In this document: one piece after another, positions 5,496-11,792 of the stretch
Position numbering within the stretch: the stretch's first letter is position 1
Layout: each line of letters opens with the position of its first letter
DNA from: a virus
Strand: one strand, 5' to 3'
IMG/VR virus record: IMGVR_UViG_3300021964_000631
Span: 1-21,816 of that record
Length of the DNA stretch: 21,816 nucleotides
The notes under the pieces: model-generated
What the model was told of the DNA's origin: nothing
Database searches by the model: none
Seen by the model: only the letters and a program-made list of their open reading frames with translations
Position numbers and translations under genes: made by a program

Positions 5496-6467
5496 ATGGC
5501 TTTACCAGGACAAACTTGGACTAGCTTCTCTAGTATCGGAAATAGAGAAGACCTAGCAGACGTAATTTATAATATTTCTCCGATGGACACACCATTCCAA
5601 AGCGGAGTGGACAAAGTATCAGCTAGTGCTGTTTACCATGAGACACAAACAGACGAGCTTCGTGCTGCGGCTGCTAACATCTCTTTAGAAGGTGATGACG
5701 CTACAGGTGCTACTCTTTCTCCCTCTACTCGAATTGGTAACTATTGCCAAATTCTTGAGGAGACTGTTGTTGTATCTGGTACTTCTCGCAGCATTGACCA
5801 AGCAGGTCGCGCTGACGAATACTCTTACCAAACTGTTAAAAGCGGTAAGCAGCTAAAGAGAGACTTAGAGCTAGCTCTTACTCAGAACCAAGCTTCTAGT
5901 GCTGGTGGTATTGGCACAGGTCGCTCAATGGCTTCTGTTGAGTCATGGTTGGCAACTAACAAGACTACTCAAGGCTCTTCTGCTGGTGGTGCTACTACTG
6001 CGGGCTTCGCCTCTGGTGTTGTTGCTGCTCCTGTAGACGCTTCTACTGCTGCTACTTTCACTAAAGCAAACCTTGATGCTGTTATTCAAGCTTGCTGGAC
6101 TGAAGGCGGTGAGCCTACTGTAATTATGGTTGGTCCATATAACCGTACTAAGGTTAGTGGCTTCTCAGGTATCTCTACCTTAGAAACTACTGCTGAGGCT
6201 ACTGGTGAAGTTGCGCTAATTGGTGCAGTTGATATGTATAAGTCTAACTTTGGTATCTTGAAGGTTGTACCTAACAGATTCCAACGTGACCAGACCGCTC
6301 TAGTACTAGACATGAATATGTGGGCTATTGCTGAGCTTCGACCTATGCAGATGAACTCTCTAGGTAAAACTGGCGACAACGACAAAGCTCAATTGCTTTC
6401 TGAATGTACTCTTGTTTCTCGAAATGAGAAGGCTTCGGGAAAAGTAACTGACTTATCTACTAGCTAG
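5496..6467 (+). CDS. Major capsid protein (SU10 / DUF5309-like)
   Basis: Predicted main shell protein with the HK97 fold (323 residues). The N-terminus LADVIYNISPMDTPFQSGV (about 20-38), the middle ILEETVVVSGTSRSID and VKSGKQLKRDLELAL, and the C-terminal LDMNMWAIAELRPM with LVSRNEKASGK match the pattern of the SU10 major capsid / DUF5309 group. No separate protease or prohead domain is present. AAAGGTGG at 5482-5489 is a strong ribosome-binding site. The gene has its own codon taste: about 9 of 12 Arg codons are CGN, whereas the portal uses mostly AGA/AGG, and ACT, GGT, TCT and GCT dominate. This fits very high expression. A terminator follows. Confidence 0.93.
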   Translation: MALPGQTWTSFSSIGNREDLADVIYNISPMDTPFQSGVDKVSASAVYHETQTDELRAAAANISLEGDDATGATLSPSTRIGNYCQILEETVVVSGTSRSIDQAGRADEYSYQTVKSGKQLKRDLELALTQNQASSAGGIGTGRSMASVESWLATNKTTQGSSAGGATTAGFASGVVAAPVDASTAATFTKANLDAVIQACWTEGGEPTVIMVGPYNRTKVSGFSGISTLETTAEATGEVALIGAVDMYKSNFGILKVVPNRFQRDQTALVLDMNMWAIAELRPMQMNSLGKTGDNDKAQLLSECTLVSRNEKASGKVTDLSTS

Positions 6468-6476
6468 TAAGTAAAT

Positions 6477-6511
6477 AGATAGGGGTGGCTTAGGCTGCCC
6501 CTTATCTTTTT
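6477..6511 (+). terminator. Rho-independent terminator after the capsid gene
   Basis: AGATA-GGGG-TGGC, loop TTAG, then GCTG-CCCC-T-TATCT form a hairpin with one bulged T and two G-U pairs. It is followed directly by a T run (6507-6511). It sits 9 bp after the capsid stop codon and just before the ribosome-binding site (GGGGGAG, 6512-6518) of the next gene. Partial read-through would let the capsid message exceed that of the downstream connector and cargo genes. Confidence 0.85.
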
Positions 6512-6520
6512 GGGGGAGAT

Positions 6521-6844
6521 ATGACAAGACGTTTAATAGATTACAATCCTTATTCGCAAGAGGCGACCTATCACCATTATGACCATGCTACGGGCATGAC
6601 TCATATCGAGACAGTGCAAGAAACACGCGCTATCAATAAAATCCTAGACAGTAACAAAGCTGTTTCTAACGCAGGTCACAACTCTACTAAGGGAGACTAC
6701 TGGCATTTTGCGACTATACCAAATGCAGTTATAATTAAGCTTAAGAATGAGAAAGGAATTGACATATTTAACAAGGATGACTTACCAAAACTTGAAACGC
6801 TAATACAGCGTGACCCTGAGTACAGATATTTAAGACGATATTAA
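6521..6844 (+). CDS. Conserved small podovirus protein, probable virion or neck component
   Basis: This 107-residue protein begins MTRRLIDYNPYS and continues with TYHHYDHATGMTHIETVQ, a KILDSNKAVSN helix, GDYWHFATIPNAVI and a C-terminal DPEYRYLRR. This arrangement is familiar from small proteins encoded after the capsid gene in marine podoviruses and related phages. I know no established function. Strong ribosome binding (GGGGGAG) directly after the terminator hairpin suggests efficient translation. It has no membrane segment. A structural or neck role is inferred from position only. Confidence 0.75.
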   Translation: MTRRLIDYNPYSQEATYHHYDHATGMTHIETVQETRAINKILDSNKAVSNAGHNSTKGDYWHFATIPNAVIIKLKNEKGIDIFNKDDLPKLETLIQRDPEYRYLRRY

Positions 6845-6853
6845 GAGAGGAAT

Positions 6854-8200
6854 ATGGAAGAGGAGCTACTAAGAGCTAAATCATTAGCAGAGTCTGAGCC
6901 TGATGAGGCTATGCGTATTTGTTGTGATGTGCTTAATCAAGACCTAGATGGATTAGACGGGCAAAGAGCCTTGTTTATGATAGGCTTCATTATGATGGAA
7001 GCTAGGCGCTATGGTTTTGCTTATCAGATATTTAAACGCTGTGCAGATGTAAACCCAAAAGTATCTGAAATCTACTCTAACATGGGTATGTGCTTAGAGC
7101 CTACAGACGCGCATGGTGCAGTGAGGTTATTCCAAAAGGCTTACCAATTAAGACCAGATAACTCTCACGCATACGCTAACGAGGCATTGATACACTTACA
7201 AACGGGCAGACCTGATAAGTGCATTACATTAAGCGAGAAAGCTTTAGAGTATGAGCCTGACTTAATGAGTGCTAAACATAATCTAGGCTTAGCTCAGATT
7301 ATGGAGAGGGATTTTAAAAGCGGGTGGGCTAATTACTTTGACACGCTAGGCGTAAAGCAGAGAAAGAAAAGAGACTACGGTCTACCTGAATGGGATGGCA
7401 AGGCTAAAGGCGAGGTAGTTATCTATGGCGAGCAAGGTGTAGGTGATGAGGTTATGTTTGCCTCTTGTCTAGCCGATGTGCAAAAGACTAATAATGTTAT
7501 CTTAGACTGCGACAAACGCCTTGAGGGGCTGTTCAAGCGTAGTTTTGACTTCCCTGTTTATGGCACTCGATTTAAGAAAGAAACGCCTATACTGGACAAC
7601 CACAGCCCTCAGTACCAGATAGCGATGGGACAATTGCCTCACTTCTATAGGAATGATGAGGATTCATTTCCAGGCACTCCCTATTTAAAGCCTGACCCTG
7701 AATTAGTCATTAAATGGAATGCTCTGTTTGATACCTTCAAGGGTAGGAAAATTGGCGTAGCGTGGAGTGGTGGACTACCTGAAACAGGATTAAAGAGACG
7801 CACACTAGACCCCTCAGACTTTGAGCCTTTATTCAACGATGAGGATACTTTTATCTGTTTGGAGTACAAAGAAGTAAGTAATGAAATCCTTGATAAATAC
7901 AATCTTAAATACTATCCGAGGTCAGTGGGTAAAGGACAGGATATTGATGAGCTTGCAGGTATTATTGCTTGTCTCGATGTTGTTGTTACCGCTTGTACCA
8001 CTGTGGTTTATATTGCGGGTGCTCTTAATATCCCCTGTGTGGTATTAGTGCCTAGAGAAGCGGGTTATCGCTACCATAGTCATGGTCAATTCCCGTGGTA
8101 TAATTCTGTGGAGCTAGTAAGACAGAGAAACAGTTGGAAAAAGACAGTTAAAGAAGCTGTAAAGATTGCAAATAAAAGAGGGGGTGTTAAATGCCTGTGA
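6854..8200 (+). CDS. TPR protein with C-terminal GT9-like glycosyltransferase domain
   Basis: This 448-residue fusion has tetratricopeptide repeats at residues ~1-165 (for example YQIFKRCADVNPKVSEIYSNMG, AVRLFQKAYQLRPDNSHAYAN, ALEYEPDLMSAKHNLG) and a sugar-nucleotide transferase-like domain at ~185-435. The GEQGVGDEVMFAS loop (192-204), KIGVAWSGG (299-307), LDVVVTACTTVVYIAGAL (374-391) and HGQFPWYNSVELVRQ (410-424) are the standard landmarks of bacterial TPR/GT9 proteins related to heptosyltransferases. It would transfer a sugar to an acceptor, possibly protein or glycan; donor and acceptor are unknown. It starts the cargo cassette, with AGAGAGGAA as ribosome-binding site. Its last residues RGGVKCL overlap the start of the next gene. 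An unusual gene for a virion operon. Confidence 0.85.
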   Translation: MEEELLRAKSLAESEPDEAMRICCDVLNQDLDGLDGQRALFMIGFIMMEARRYGFAYQIFKRCADVNPKVSEIYSNMGMCLEPTDAHGAVRLFQKAYQLRPDNSHAYANEALIHLQTGRPDKCITLSEKALEYEPDLMSAKHNLGLAQIMERDFKSGWANYFDTLGVKQRKKRDYGLPEWDGKAKGEVVIYGEQGVGDEVMFASCLADVQKTNNVILDCDKRLEGLFKRSFDFPVYGTRFKKETPILDNHSPQYQIAMGQLPHFYRNDEDSFPGTPYLKPDPELVIKWNALFDTFKGRKIGVAWSGGLPETGLKRRTLDPSDFEPLFNDEDTFICLEYKEVSNEILDKYNLKYYPRSVGKGQDIDELAGIIACLDVVVTACTTVVYIAGALNIPCVVLVPREAGYRYHSHGQFPWYNSVELVRQRNSWKKTVKEAVKIANKRGGVKCL

Positions 8201-8382
8201 CGGATTTGGCGCAGTATATAATTGATAAGTTTCTACATCAGCCCTATAAGGTAATCAGTGTTTTTACTTATCCTGACAGGCTAGAGGCTGGTATAAGAAT
8301 GACTGACGGCAGGCTGGTTTTTGTTGATGGACTATTTGCTGCTAAACTTAAAGAGGCGCAAAGAGGAGGCGTTAAGTGTTAA
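8191..8382 (+). CDS. Small hypothetical protein between two glycosyltransferases
   Basis: This 63-residue protein begins MPVTDLAQYIIDKFLHQPYK, continues with strands VISVFTYPDRLEAGIRMTDG and RLVFVDGLFAAKL, and ends in RGGVKC. It looks like a small helix plus beta-strand domain; I do not recognise the family. It starts inside the end of the TPR-glycosyltransferase gene (10-bp overlap) with AGAGGGGG as ribosome-binding site. Its own last codons supply the AGAGGAGG ribosome-binding site and GTG start of the next gene. The tight coupling implies it is made with both transferases, perhaps as an accessory subunit. Confidence 0.65.
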   Translation: MPVTDLAQYIIDKFLHQPYKVISVFTYPDRLEAGIRMTDGRLVFVDGLFAAKLKEAQRGGVKC

Positions 8383-9035
8383 AAATTATGATTGGTTACG
8401 ACCCCGCAGAGACTGTGGCTTATCACGTCTTATGCCATTCAATTATGCGACAGGCTAAGGGTGAGGTAATGTTTTGCCCTATCAACAAGAGAAATATTCC
8501 ACAGTTTACAAGAGGCATCGAGGACGGTAGCACAGAGTTTAGCTTCTCGCGCTTCTTAACCCCTTATCTAGCAGGCTATCAAGGTCAAGCTATCTTTATG
8601 GATTGCGATATGTTGGTAAGGGGTGATATATATGACGTTTTAAAACACTGTGACTTTAACCATGACGTATTTTGTGTGAAGCATGACTACACGCCAAAGA
8701 CTGAGGATAAGTTTTTAGGCAATAAGCAGCATCTTTATCCTAAGAAAAACTGGTCTAGCTTTATGGTATTTAATTGCTATAAGGAAGGCAGTAAGAGATT
8801 AACTGTTGATGCGGTTAATAACGAGTCGGGCGCATACTTACATCAATTAAAATGGGCTGATTCTGTAGGCGAATTGCCCGTAGAATGGAATCACTTGGTA
8901 GGTGAGTATGAGCCTAATCCCGATGCTAGAGTGATACACTACACACTAGGCACTCCATGCTTTCAAGGTTATGAAGAGCAAGAATGGGCTAATGAGTGGG
9001 AACAAGAATTCGATTTAATGGTATGGAGTAAATAA
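8376..9035 (+). CDS. GT8-like glycosyltransferase (GT-A fold)
   Basis: Predicted sugar-nucleotide-dependent glycosyltransferase, 219 residues. It has N-terminal MLKIMIGYDPAE, a FSFSRFLTPYLAGY segment (55-68), the metal-binding DxD motif in AIFMDCDML (D76, D78), KNWSSFMVFNC (124-134) and the C-terminal IHYTLGTPCF (187-196), whose His is expected to coordinate the metal. This is the GT8 / nucleotide-diphospho-sugar transferase pattern in a short form. The start is GTG 8376, set by AGAGGAGG at 8362-8369 with 6-base spacing. It overlaps the preceding gene by 7 bp. With the TPR-GT9 gene it may build a two-step glycan. Substrate unknown. Confidence 0.87.
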   Translation: MLKIMIGYDPAETVAYHVLCHSIMRQAKGEVMFCPINKRNIPQFTRGIEDGSTEFSFSRFLTPYLAGYQGQAIFMDCDMLVRGDIYDVLKHCDFNHDVFCVKHDYTPKTEDKFLGNKQHLYPKKNWSSFMVFNCYKEGSKRLTVDAVNNESGAYLHQLKWADSVGELPVEWNHLVGEYEPNPDARVIHYTLGTPCFQGYEEQEWANEWEQEFDLMVWSK

Positions 9036-9036
9036 A

Positions 9037-9237
9037 ATGGCAGCTAAAAAGAAAGTAGTTAAAAAACCTGTAGCACAGAAACAGCCACCTAAGAAGTATT
9101 ATGACATTTTGCATCATGAAGACCCTCAAGCGTTAATCGCTGAAGTAGAGCGGTGGATAGATAAAGGCTGGCGACCTGTAGGCGGTGCTAACTTTTCGCC
9201 TGATGGTTATTTTCAGTCAATCACAAAGGTGCGCTAA
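9037..9237 (+). CDS. DUF1737-like small protein
   Basis: This 66-residue protein has a Lys/Pro-rich leader (AAKKKVVKKPVAQKQPPKK, residues 2-20). A compact domain follows, matching the DUF1737 pattern: YYDILHHEDPQALIAEVERWIDKGWRPVGG, then SPDGYFQSITKV. DUF1737 proteins are short, of unknown function, and common in bacteria and phages, with a helix followed by a GW-PxGG turn and strands. The basic leader could bind nucleic acid or polyanion, but this is only a guess. It is translationally linked to the methyltransferase gene, whose ATG overlaps its stop (TAATG). Confidence 0.7.
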   Translation: MAAKKKVVKKPVAQKQPPKKYYDILHHEDPQALIAEVERWIDKGWRPVGGANFSPDGYFQSITKVR

Positions 9238-9764
9238 TGACTACCATCACAGAGGAATATAGGGAAGAAATGAAAGCTCTGCATGAGAAGAGTGGTGATG
9301 GCTTTGGTGTTGCCTCTACTCACTTTGCACCTGTTGTATCTAAGCTTATCAATGAGCTTAATATTACTGACGTTTTAGACTATGGAGCGGGTAAGGGTTT
9401 ATTAGCTAAATGCTTAAAAGTAGACCATGATGTAGAAGTACATCATTACGAGCCAGCAGTAGAAGAGTGGGCTGCTAAGCCTGATTCTCACCAGTTAGTA
9501 TGTTGTTTAGATGTGCTTGAGCATATCGAGCCTGAGTTAATAGATGAGGTGTTAGACGACTTAGTGCGTTGTACCGAATTTTTTGGTATATTTAGCATAC
9601 ATACGGGCGCGGCTAAGAAGTTTCTAAGCGATGGACGAAATGCCCACCTAATCCAAGCCCCTGCAACATGGTGGCTACCTAAAATCATGCAGCGCTTTGA
9701 GTTACAAGTATTTAGCGCTCATCCTAACGGCTTTTATGTCGTGGTAAGAAAATATGGCACTTAG
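9237..9764 (+). CDS. Class I SAM-dependent methyltransferase
   Basis: This 175-residue protein has the Rossmann-fold SAM-binding motif I VLDYGAGKG (46-54), an acidic residue at the end of strand 2 (HHYEP, 69-73), and the post-motif CCLDVLEHIEPE (89-100), in which D92 and E95-H96 match the methyltransferase type 11/23 pattern. It is shorter than most free methyltransferases. The target could be a sugar, small molecule, nucleic acid or protein and cannot be told from sequence. The nearby glycosyltransferases make sugar methylation the simplest guess. AAAGGTG precedes the start. Its 3' end overlaps the adaptor gene by 11 bp, so the cassette is fully locked into the late operon. Confidence 0.82.
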   Translation: MTTITEEYREEMKALHEKSGDGFGVASTHFAPVVSKLINELNITDVLDYGAGKGLLAKCLKVDHDVEVHHYEPAVEEWAAKPDSHQLVCCLDVLEHIEPELIDEVLDDLVRCTEFFGIFSIHTGAAKKFLSDGRNAHLIQAPATWWLPKIMQRFELQVFSAHPNGFYVVVRKYGT

Positions 9765-10389
9765 CAACTATAACGAGCTTAAAACAGCTCTAACTGATTG
9801 GGGAAAGAGAGGAGACGCAGACGGTAAACTAGATACATTCATTGACTTATGCGAGTCAGAGATGTGGCACGGCTCAGCTATGGAGGGGCTAAACTCTGAG
9901 CCTTTACGCATTAGGCAGATGGAAACAAGAGCCACGGGCAACCTGTCAGGGCGTACATTAGCCTTACCTAGCGACTTTTTGGAGTCTCGTAAGCTAAGAT
10001 TAACCACAAACCCGCCTAGAGAGCTAACATTTCGCACTACTGAGGCGCTAAACATTGATTCTACTAACGGAATCCCCACAGATTACACGATTACAGACCA
10101 AATAGAGTTTAATCGCACCCCTGATAGCACTTACGGGTATGAATTAACCTATTATCAGTCATTAACAGCCCTTTCAGGCGCTAATCAGACCAATGCAGTG
10201 ATAACTAATCACCCTAATGTGTATTTATACGGTGCTTTATCACACTATTTCGACTGGGCGCAGAATATAGAGCAGTCAATGAAGTATAGACAGATGTTTG
10301 TCTCTGCAATCAAGAACGCAAACAAGTCTAGCCGCAAAGGACGCTACCCCTCAGCTAAATCTATGAAGCGAGAAGCGCCTACTCCATGA
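9754..10389 (+). CDS. Head-tail adaptor protein (P22 gp4 / SU10 adaptor-like)
   Basis: Predicted ring protein that binds under the portal after packaging and links it to the tail hub. It has 211 residues. The N-terminal helices MALSNYNELKTALTDWGKRGD and FIDLCESEMWHG, the RTLALPSDFLESRKLRL strand pair, ELTYYQSLTAL, and NHPNVYLYGALSHYFDWAQN followed by a MKYRQMFVSAI helix form the pattern of podovirus adaptors, in which a long N-terminal helical bundle is followed by a beta region. The C-terminal tail is basic (SSRKGRYPSAKSMKR). The gp10-like hub follows with an ATGA overlap, the order expected for adaptor then hub. Confidence 0.85.
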   Translation: MALSNYNELKTALTDWGKRGDADGKLDTFIDLCESEMWHGSAMEGLNSEPLRIRQMETRATGNLSGRTLALPSDFLESRKLRLTTNPPRELTFRTTEALNIDSTNGIPTDYTITDQIEFNRTPDSTYGYELTYYQSLTALSGANQTNAVITNHPNVYLYGALSHYFDWAQNIEQSMKYRQMFVSAIKNANKSSRKGRYPSAKSMKREAPTP

Positions 10390-11792
10390 TAGTTGATTAT
10401 AATTTCAGCCCTATTATTGGTAGCGATAGGTCTACACAGTTTGACCCTGCCACTATTAGAAATGTCTTTATCACAAAGGCAGATGCTAGTGGGCGTATAG
10501 GTTGGCATGACTTTCCTGGACTTAAAAAGATAAGCACAGACACCTCCCCCGAGCGTGGAATGCACGAAATGAGCAGCGAGAGGTATTTAGTCACAGGCAC
10601 AACTCTTTACAAGGAGTCGAGTAGTGGTGTAAGAACCACCATAGGCTCTATTGTAGGCTCAGCTAGGTGTACCTTTGCAGACGATGGCACTAATTTGCTT
10701 ATTGCTAATGGTGAGGGTGGGAAAGTCTATAAATACGATGGCACAACATTAACAGACCACACTAGCACTCTATCAATAACAAATCCTAGATGGGTAGACT
10801 TTTTCTATGATACTTTTCTAGCAGGTAATGATACGACTTTAGCCACATCTAATAACGGTGATGTAGATACATGGAATAGTTTAAACATTACACCTACTGA
10901 CCAAGAGTCAGACAAAATGGTTAGAGGTTATGTGTTTCAATCTATCCTCTATGCTTTTTGTGAGAAGAGTACAGAGAATTGGTTATTCACAGCCTCAGGC
11001 AATCCCCCTATATCTCGTAGAGGCTCATCTTCTAGCGCGATAGGCATAGCAGGGCGCTACGCGGTGGCTAACAGTGATTCATACTTATACTGGCTAGGTG
11101 ATGATAGGAGGGTGTACAAAGGCTCAGGCGGCTCTGCAATTCCTGTCAATACGGCTTCTGTATCGAGCATTATAGACGGCTATAATTTCGTAGCTGATTG
11201 CATAACTTCCTCTTTCATATTGAAGGGGCAAGTATTTGTCATGTTTAAGTTTCCACAAGAGGGTGACTGTCTTGTGTATTCAGAGACTAATGATTACTGG
11301 ATTCCCCTCTCAAGTGGCACTGACAGGTATACGAGAGCAGGTTGGTATGGTAACGCTATACATAATGTTTACGGGAAAAACCTATCTTTAGATGCTGTAG
11401 ATGGGCATACCTATGAGCTAGACTTTGATACTTTAACGGATAATGGCGACACAAGACTAAGAATATTAACAGGCAATCCTATAACAGGCGCTGTAATAGG
11501 TAAGCCACAAAATCAAATAAGTGTAGACGCTATCCACATCCCTATGCAGCGCGGTGTGGATTTAACAACAGGACAAGGTTCTACTGCTCAGATAATCTTT
11601 GAGTTAAGCCCTAACGGTGGGCAGATATTTAACAGACAGGATTTAGTAAACATTGGCGCTTATGACAATAAGGTAATACTTCACCAATTCTGCACAGGCT
11701 ATGAGATTGTGCCTAGAATTATGATTAGTGACCCTGTGCCTCTAACTGTATTTACAGGTGGCAGTGTTAGCGTATCGGATGCGGGGTATTAA
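10386..11792 (+). CDS. Tail hub / DNA stabilisation protein (P22 gp10-like)
   Basis: Predicted short-tail hub that plugs the portal-adaptor channel, retains DNA and bears fibres. The 468 residues are nearly all beta-strand with repeated GTTLYK, GGKVYKYDGTTLT, DSYLYWLGDDRRVYKG, CLVYSETNDYWIPL and VDGHTYELDFDT blades. This is the beta-propeller arrangement of P22 gp10 (Phage_stabilise-type) proteins. The N-terminus MIVDYNFSPIIGSDRS and the phrase NVFITKADASGR also resemble that family. The length is close to P22 gp10. The position after the adaptor supports the call. Confidence 0.85.
   Translation: MIVDYNFSPIIGSDRSTQFDPATIRNVFITKADASGRIGWHDFPGLKKISTDTSPERGMHEMSSERYLVTGTTLYKESSSGVRTTIGSIVGSARCTFADDGTNLLIANGEGGKVYKYDGTTLTDHTSTLSITNPRWVDFFYDTFLAGNDTTLATSNNGDVDTWNSLNITPTDQESDKMVRGYVFQSILYAFCEKSTENWLFTASGNPPISRRGSSSSAIGIAGRYAVANSDSYLYWLGDDRRVYKGSGGSAIPVNTASVSSIIDGYNFVADCITSSFILKGQVFVMFKFPQEGDCLVYSETNDYWIPLSSGTDRYTRAGWYGNAIHNVYGKNLSLDAVDGHTYELDFDTLTDNGDTRLRILTGNPITGAVIGKPQNQISVDAIHIPMQRGVDLTTGQGSTAQIIFELSPNGGQIFNRQDLVNIGAYDNKVILHQFCTGYEIVPRIMISDPVPLTVFTGGSVSVSDAGY

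Follow-up and report, generated by a model that had tools for sequence, protein, structure and literature searches.

A TPR glycosyltransferase gene beside the phage capsid gene and its exchangeable neighbours: a candidate module for virion-protein glycosylation

Introduction

What would glycosyltransferases and a methyltransferase modify when they are encoded amid the structural genes of a phage? The question is raised by the window analysed here, which is an entire IMG/VR viral record of 21,816 bp and carries such genes among five closely packed open reading frames (ORFs) between the capsid side and the head-tail adaptor. The original prediction took them for a five-gene cassette that could glycosylate and methylate capsid or fibre proteins, or alternatively alter the host surface and so block superinfection.

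Results and discussion

Organization of the locus

Portal, scaffold and terminase genes lie upstream of the block that begins with the major capsid protein (MCP) gene (5496..6467, + strand; SU10_MCP, Pfam E=1e-86; phrog_1328, E=8e-93). It is followed by g6521 (6521..6844, +; phrog_3982), a conserved 107-aa structural-operon protein that forms the left border of the slot and adjoins the MCP/adaptor genes in 113 of 117 dereplicated loci, while the right border is a SU10-type head-tail adaptor (9754..10389, +; PF24175, E=2e-23). Between the two borders stand a 448-aa protein with TPR and GT-B glycosyltransferase parts, hereafter TPR-GT (6854..8200, +), which is the constant gene of the cassette; a 63-aa orphan ORF (8191..8382, +), coding-like by codon score; a variable gene for a 219-aa GT-A glycosyltransferase of predicted GT8 fold, with a GTG start (8376..9035, +; phrog_28018, E=1e-47); a small DUF1737 protein with a basic tail (9037..9237, +); and a 175-aa class I SAM methyltransferase (9237..9764, +).

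The ORF check of the window confirmed that the five ORFs overlap or abut at these coordinates, as had been predicted. Scored against the codon usage found elsewhere in the window, all five, the 63-aa ORF included, came out as coding, and Shine-Dalgarno-like sequences were seen 5' of most of them; since the arrangement is conserved in relatives, it is not a product of chance. The block does interrupt the structural order, for g6521 and the adaptor gene are contiguous in those relatives whose site is empty. Next to the adaptor, where a hub had been foreseen, lies a head-closure Hc3-like gene instead (10386..11792; phrog_578). A nucleotide-level search of the cassette block against phage records returned no match.

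Fold of the TPR glycosyltransferase

The TPR part of TPR-GT was certain by Pfam, its GT9 match was weak and sub-threshold (E=0.12), and a GT41 Pfam match was not found. The AlphaFold2 model (pLDDT 90.7, pTM 0.87; alignment of 12 sequences) comprises TPR helices over residues 3-162, followed by alternating Rossmann-like domains, and its top PDB structural matches were SPINDLY and O-GlcNAc transferase (OGT). The Foldseek TM-scores were modest (0.3-0.46), because the two domains are set at different angles, and the match is inflated by the TPRs; the stretches of OGT in the PDB best matched in sequence likewise fall in the TPR region. OGT and SPINDLY are cytoplasmic protein glycosyltransferases, the latter being a protein O-fucosyltransferase. 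An N-terminal TPR part with a C-terminal GT-B part, the layout of FlmG-like enzymes, was found jointly by Pfam, the predicted model and the PDB matches. The label "TPR-GT9-like" was right in its first half, whereas its second half gave way to a predicted fold nearest OGT/SPINDLY. A plain GT9 heptosyltransferase label was rejected, with the Pfam match being weak and OGT/SPINDLY the better structural analogue.

Other genes of the cassette

For the 219-aa protein, the Pfam Glyco_transf_8 match stayed below threshold (15.1 vs 24.3 bits cut-off, E=0.018). Its predicted model has a GT-A fold (pLDDT 88.6) with structural matches to WbbM, UGGT, LgtC, LARGE1, GlyE and glycogenin, and D76-x-D78, the DxD metal site, is invariant in the alignment. 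On this modelled fold the protein is a GT-A enzyme of the GT8 fold, though outside Pfam GT8 membership, and the description as GT8-like stands by fold and DxD site and fails by the Pfam cut-off. The DUF1737 assignment was upheld by PF08410 (25.9 vs 24 bits, above the cut-off). The methyltransferase also proved correctly named: it lies below the Pfam cut-off, its PHROG match (phrog_24759, E=2e-18) and its invariant SAM motif I (L47-D48-Y49-G50 with G52-K53) place it in class I, and it probably acts on sugar. No family match for the 63-aa protein was found in Pfam or PHROG, and no homologue in the fetched loci or in a dedicated IMG/VR scan.

Constant and exchangeable genes

A TPR-GT profile matched 536 or more IMG/VR loci, from which the 80 best were kept; these contigs (about 80) represent 56 non-redundant loci, chosen through TPR-GT and thus giving no estimate of its frequency. 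Most of the loci are metagenomic fragments, and the relatives' genes were called by simple ORF tiling. In essentially all of the roughly 80 best contigs, TPR-GT directly follows MCP-g6521, and the adaptor lies downstream with rare exceptions. Close relatives on intact contigs, with MCPs 58-75% identical, carry MCP, g6521, TPR-GT, GT8, methyltransferase and adaptor genes in that order.

The stretch from TPR-GT to the adaptor is variable, and among the best 80 of at least 536 loci it contained 204 ORFs in about 53 clusters. GT8 was present in 31 loci and the methyltransferase in 36; nearly all the larger clusters were GT8, other transferases, several methyltransferase families including FkbM, radical SAM/SPASM proteins and DegT aminotransferases. 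GT9-like transferases also occurred among the variable genes, a GDP-mannose 4,6-dehydratase and a hexapeptide acetyltransferase were each seen in a single locus (L002 and L077, respectively), and no NeuB-like gene was seen in this stretch. This bears on pseudaminic acid, the sugar transferred by FlmG-like enzymes; the donor sugar may be host-supplied. At some loci, such as L209 and L170, TPR-GT occupies the slot alone.

The five genes as one unit were accordingly rejected: in the synteny comparison proposed to see whether the block comes and goes as a whole, the DUF1737 gene was shared with one relative only (L016, 3122-3310) and the 63-aa gene with none. What was announced as a five-gene cassette is a constant TPR-GT with common but exchangeable GT8 and methyltransferase genes, its downstream enzymes being swapped between phages.

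Occupancy of the slot and the capsid tree

Loci were also chosen by capsid-protein scans, which avoids selection by the enzyme itself. Among the 77 dereplicated MCP-chosen loci, the slot between g6521 and the adaptor was empty in 52 and held TPR-GT in 10; nine, forming a separate clade, carried just one enzyme, an unrelated GT-A of GT2-like type, and other content was found in six. Individual genomes illustrate two of these states, Microcystis phage PP496355 having a clean empty g6521-adaptor junction and MW202711 a GT2/Anp1-like enzyme in the slot. An unrelated GT-A enzyme thus recurs at the same site, in the other clade and in MW202711, which also speaks for a glycosylation module in a fixed slot.

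In an MCP-based tree (65 rows), the presence of TPR-GT required three changes versus 17 on shuffled labels, and within TPR-GT carriers GT8 required 12 and the methyltransferase nine, both figures being inflated by incomplete contigs. TPR-GT can therefore be regarded as a stable clade trait around which the neighbouring genes turn over.

A second capsid family and prophage-like copies

The slot is not confined to phages with SU10_MCP. In L003, L004, L091 and L189 the capsid belongs to Phage_capsid_3/phrog_334, and the capsid of L183 was grouped with them by resemblance to that of L004 only; all five loci have TPR-GT, methyltransferase and GT8 genes between capsid and adaptor. L091 corresponds to MW202512, which is annotated as complete. 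The same three genes precede the adaptor in L173 (Reyranella sp. CPCC 100927). Both L173 and L189 (Vineibacter terrae CC-CFT640) sit inside long contigs of cultured bacteria and are therefore probably prophages.

Protein acceptor and rival explanations

The relatives of TPR-GT outside phages point to proteins as acceptors. Flagellin lies within 10 kb of a TPR-GT homologue in five of 13 non-phage genomes, a proximity with a rough P of about 4e-6 (7e-5 with two related genomes counted once) that rests on an assumed, generous chance rate of ~2%; flagellin near bacterial homologues was confirmed by Pfam in L186, L188, L190, L191 and L198. Distant bacterial homologues adjoin flagellin, FliD/FliS-like or FlaF genes, and phage members adjoin the MCP gene instead. 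The neighbourhood in phages could reflect late co-expression alone. Co-divergence was examined over 37 loci: MCP distances correlated with those of the TPR domain at r=0.75, the GT domain at 0.62, the scaffold at 0.70, g6521 at 0.64 and the adaptor at 0.59. The difference between the TPR and GT domains was 0.14 (95% 0.05-0.24), and the partial r with MCP was 0.60 for TPR with GT held constant and 0.29 for GT with TPR held constant. Gene length may account for part of this co-divergence, and so may linkage, as the MCP gene lies closer to the TPR half than to the catalytic half.

Taken together, the capsid-side position, the OGT/SPINDLY-like architecture, the flagellin-adjacent homologues and the TPR-MCP co-divergence favour modification of a virion protein, with MCP as the most likely glycan acceptor. 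The suggestion that the genes could glycosylate and methylate capsid or fibre proteins survives to the extent that a glycosyltransferase and methyltransferase set does lie with the late structural genes and that a virion-protein target is favoured. Other virion proteins, such as a tail fibre or g6521, modified by unchanged chemistry, are possible but less probable acceptors, and would make a variant of the same explanation; the tail-tube proteins glycosylated besides capsid proteins in mycobacteriophages, according to PMC12363180, speak for it, whereas TPR-GT stands beside MCP, the TPR distances track MCP, and the correlation of MCP distances is higher with TPR than with any of scaffold, adaptor and g6521.

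The host surface offers a different target, since a late change of LPS or capsule could block superinfection or keep progeny from sticking to debris. Phage glycosyltransferases that convert the host serotype are well known (PMC12619734), and the LPS enzymes LgtC and WbbM are among the structural matches of the GT8-fold protein. This half of the original prediction has nonetheless lost ground and is now considered unlikely. By hydrophobicity of the window proteins, no credible membrane segment was found in the cassette, the sole hydrophobic peak of TPR-GT being the Rossmann core in the alternating helix/strand region of the model; the cassette showed neither a flippase nor a GtrAB-like pair nor any lysogenic-conversion context. 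The late structural-operon place beside MCP, in two capsid families, is also at odds with a surface role, and the TPR domain and flagellin-linked homologues indicate a protein acceptor. Hypermodification of phage DNA, in which the transferases and methyltransferase would alter bases against restriction, is more improbable still: phage glycosyltransferases acting on DNA exist (PMC12619734), but neither the place in the capsid operon nor the OGT-like architecture with TPRs agrees with such a role, and no thymidylate-synthase/hydroxymethylase-type enzyme was present in 18 cassette contigs (32-44 kb), some of which may be incomplete. With the thymidylate-synthase family absent from these contigs, the DNA reading was disfavoured.

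Proposed mechanism

We therefore consider it likely that the locus encodes an FlmG-like, TPR-targeted module that glycosylates a virion protein, with MCP as the most likely target, and then extends and methylates the sugar. In the proposed sequence of events, the TPR domain would bind the newly made virion protein, most likely MCP, in the host cytoplasm, as the co-divergence suggests, and the predicted GT-B domain would attach the first sugar to it, with a nucleotide sugar as donor; transfer to protein is suggested by the OGT/SPINDLY-like structure and the flagellin-adjacent bacterial homologues. From its modelled fold and DxD site, the GT8-fold enzyme may then add a further sugar, which the methyltransferase would cap or decorate. 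As the genes downstream of TPR-GT are swapped between phages, we propose a different glycan per phage built on a common attachment chemistry. Speculatively, the altered virion surface might bring a benefit in particle stability or in adhesion, or let the phage evade binding factors or predators.

A broader view, to which we give an even chance, is that a widespread group of environmental podovirus-like phages combines a conserved OGT/FlmG-type initiator, directed to the capsid protein by its TPR domain, with a hotspot of exchangeable enzymes, yielding a variable capsid "sugar coat" across two capsid families, and that other clades convergently use another transferase in the slot.

Implications and comparison with known systems

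Virion glycosylation has so far been documented mainly in mycobacteriophages. TPR-GT relatives occur at 536 or more IMG/VR loci and those closely examined are nearly all capsid-adjacent, so glycosylation of phage particles may be far commoner than known. If the proposal is true, capsid chemistry is diverse among many uncultured aquatic phages, owing to a constant TPR-targeted transferase and exchangeable tailoring enzymes, and a compact cytoplasmic system becomes available for putting chosen sugars on an assembling protein shell. The prophage-like copies in cultured bacteria make the idea testable now.

Phage virion glycosylation as such is already known; the new element is the MCP-adjacent TPR-GT slot with exchangeable genes, and a search of open-licence papers found no description of a TPR glycosyltransferase beside a phage capsid gene. 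The mycobacteriophage glycosyltransferases (Che8 gp110, Corndog gp38, Myrna) glycosylate capsid and tail-tube proteins (Freeman et al. 2023, as relayed in the available part of PMC12363180). The likeness would lie in phage-encoded glycosyltransferases that act on virion proteins; the hosts differ, and a TPR-GT module or a conserved, exchangeable MCP-adjacent slot is not described in that part of the source. Protein heptosyltransferases of the TibC/Aah type resemble the GT domain, which is matched by an MW202713 phage protein annotated as TibC-like (hhalign 99.5%), but the TPR part is unmatched and that gene lies upstream of the terminase, not by MCP. OGT and SPINDLY (GT41), the top PDB structural matches, share the TPR plus GT-B layout but differ in identity (~12%), in that the phage enzyme has few TPRs, and in its Pfam hint of GT9, not GT41.

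A close parallel in architecture is FlmG of Caulobacter crescentus, a cytoplasmic flagellin O-glycosyltransferase; modification of flagellin depends on the TPR domain of FlmG, to which flagellin binds (PMC7591256). Both enzymes have an N-terminal TPR and a C-terminal GT-B part without a membrane part; the phage TPR-GT has 448 aa versus 596 aa in FlmG, and its gene adjoins that of the capsid.

The conserved 107-residue gene g6521 (window 6521-6844, phrog_3982), which forms the left border of the sugar-enzyme cassette slot, was found to be near-universal, lying directly 3' of the major capsid protein (MCP) gene or 5' of the SU10-type adaptor gene in 113 of the 117 dereplicated loci. The g6521/adaptor slot is filled in a separate clade by a single GT-A enzyme with a DSDM motif, as observed at 1285-1905 of related locus L229, 1421-2098 of L268 and in similar loci.

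On the other side of g6521, between it and the MCP gene, L028 and about 30 similar marine loci carry a 2OG-Fe(II) oxygenase (PF13640; 247 residues with prolyl-hydroxylase-like motifs at L028:1501-2244), a further candidate protein-modifying enzyme adjoining the capsid gene. Within the cassette itself, L002 encodes a DegT aminotransferase and a GDP-mannose 4,6-dehydratase (6124-8893), a pair compatible with GDP-perosamine-type sugar synthesis, and radical SAM/SPASM proteins, which may modify sugars or peptides, occur at L004:9039-9995 and L162:7283-8233. A homologue of GT8, the cassette's GT-A-fold transferase, is located upstream of the large terminase gene at L005:2820-3476 and not beside MCP.

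Prophage-like copies were present in two cultured isolates, Reyranella sp. CPCC 100927 (L173) and Vineibacter terrae CC-CFT640 (L189). The Acidobacteria MAG contig JADFOI010000014.1 (L170), carrying portal, MCP, TPR-glycosyltransferase, adaptor and head-closure (Hc3) genes, is phage sequence inside a bacterial genome bin and was possibly misbinned.

Bacterial TPR-glycosyltransferase homologues in L186, L188, L190, L191 and L198 adjoin flagellin, FliD/FliS-like or FlaF genes, and are candidate flagellin glycosyltransferases of the Caulobacter crescentus FlmG type.
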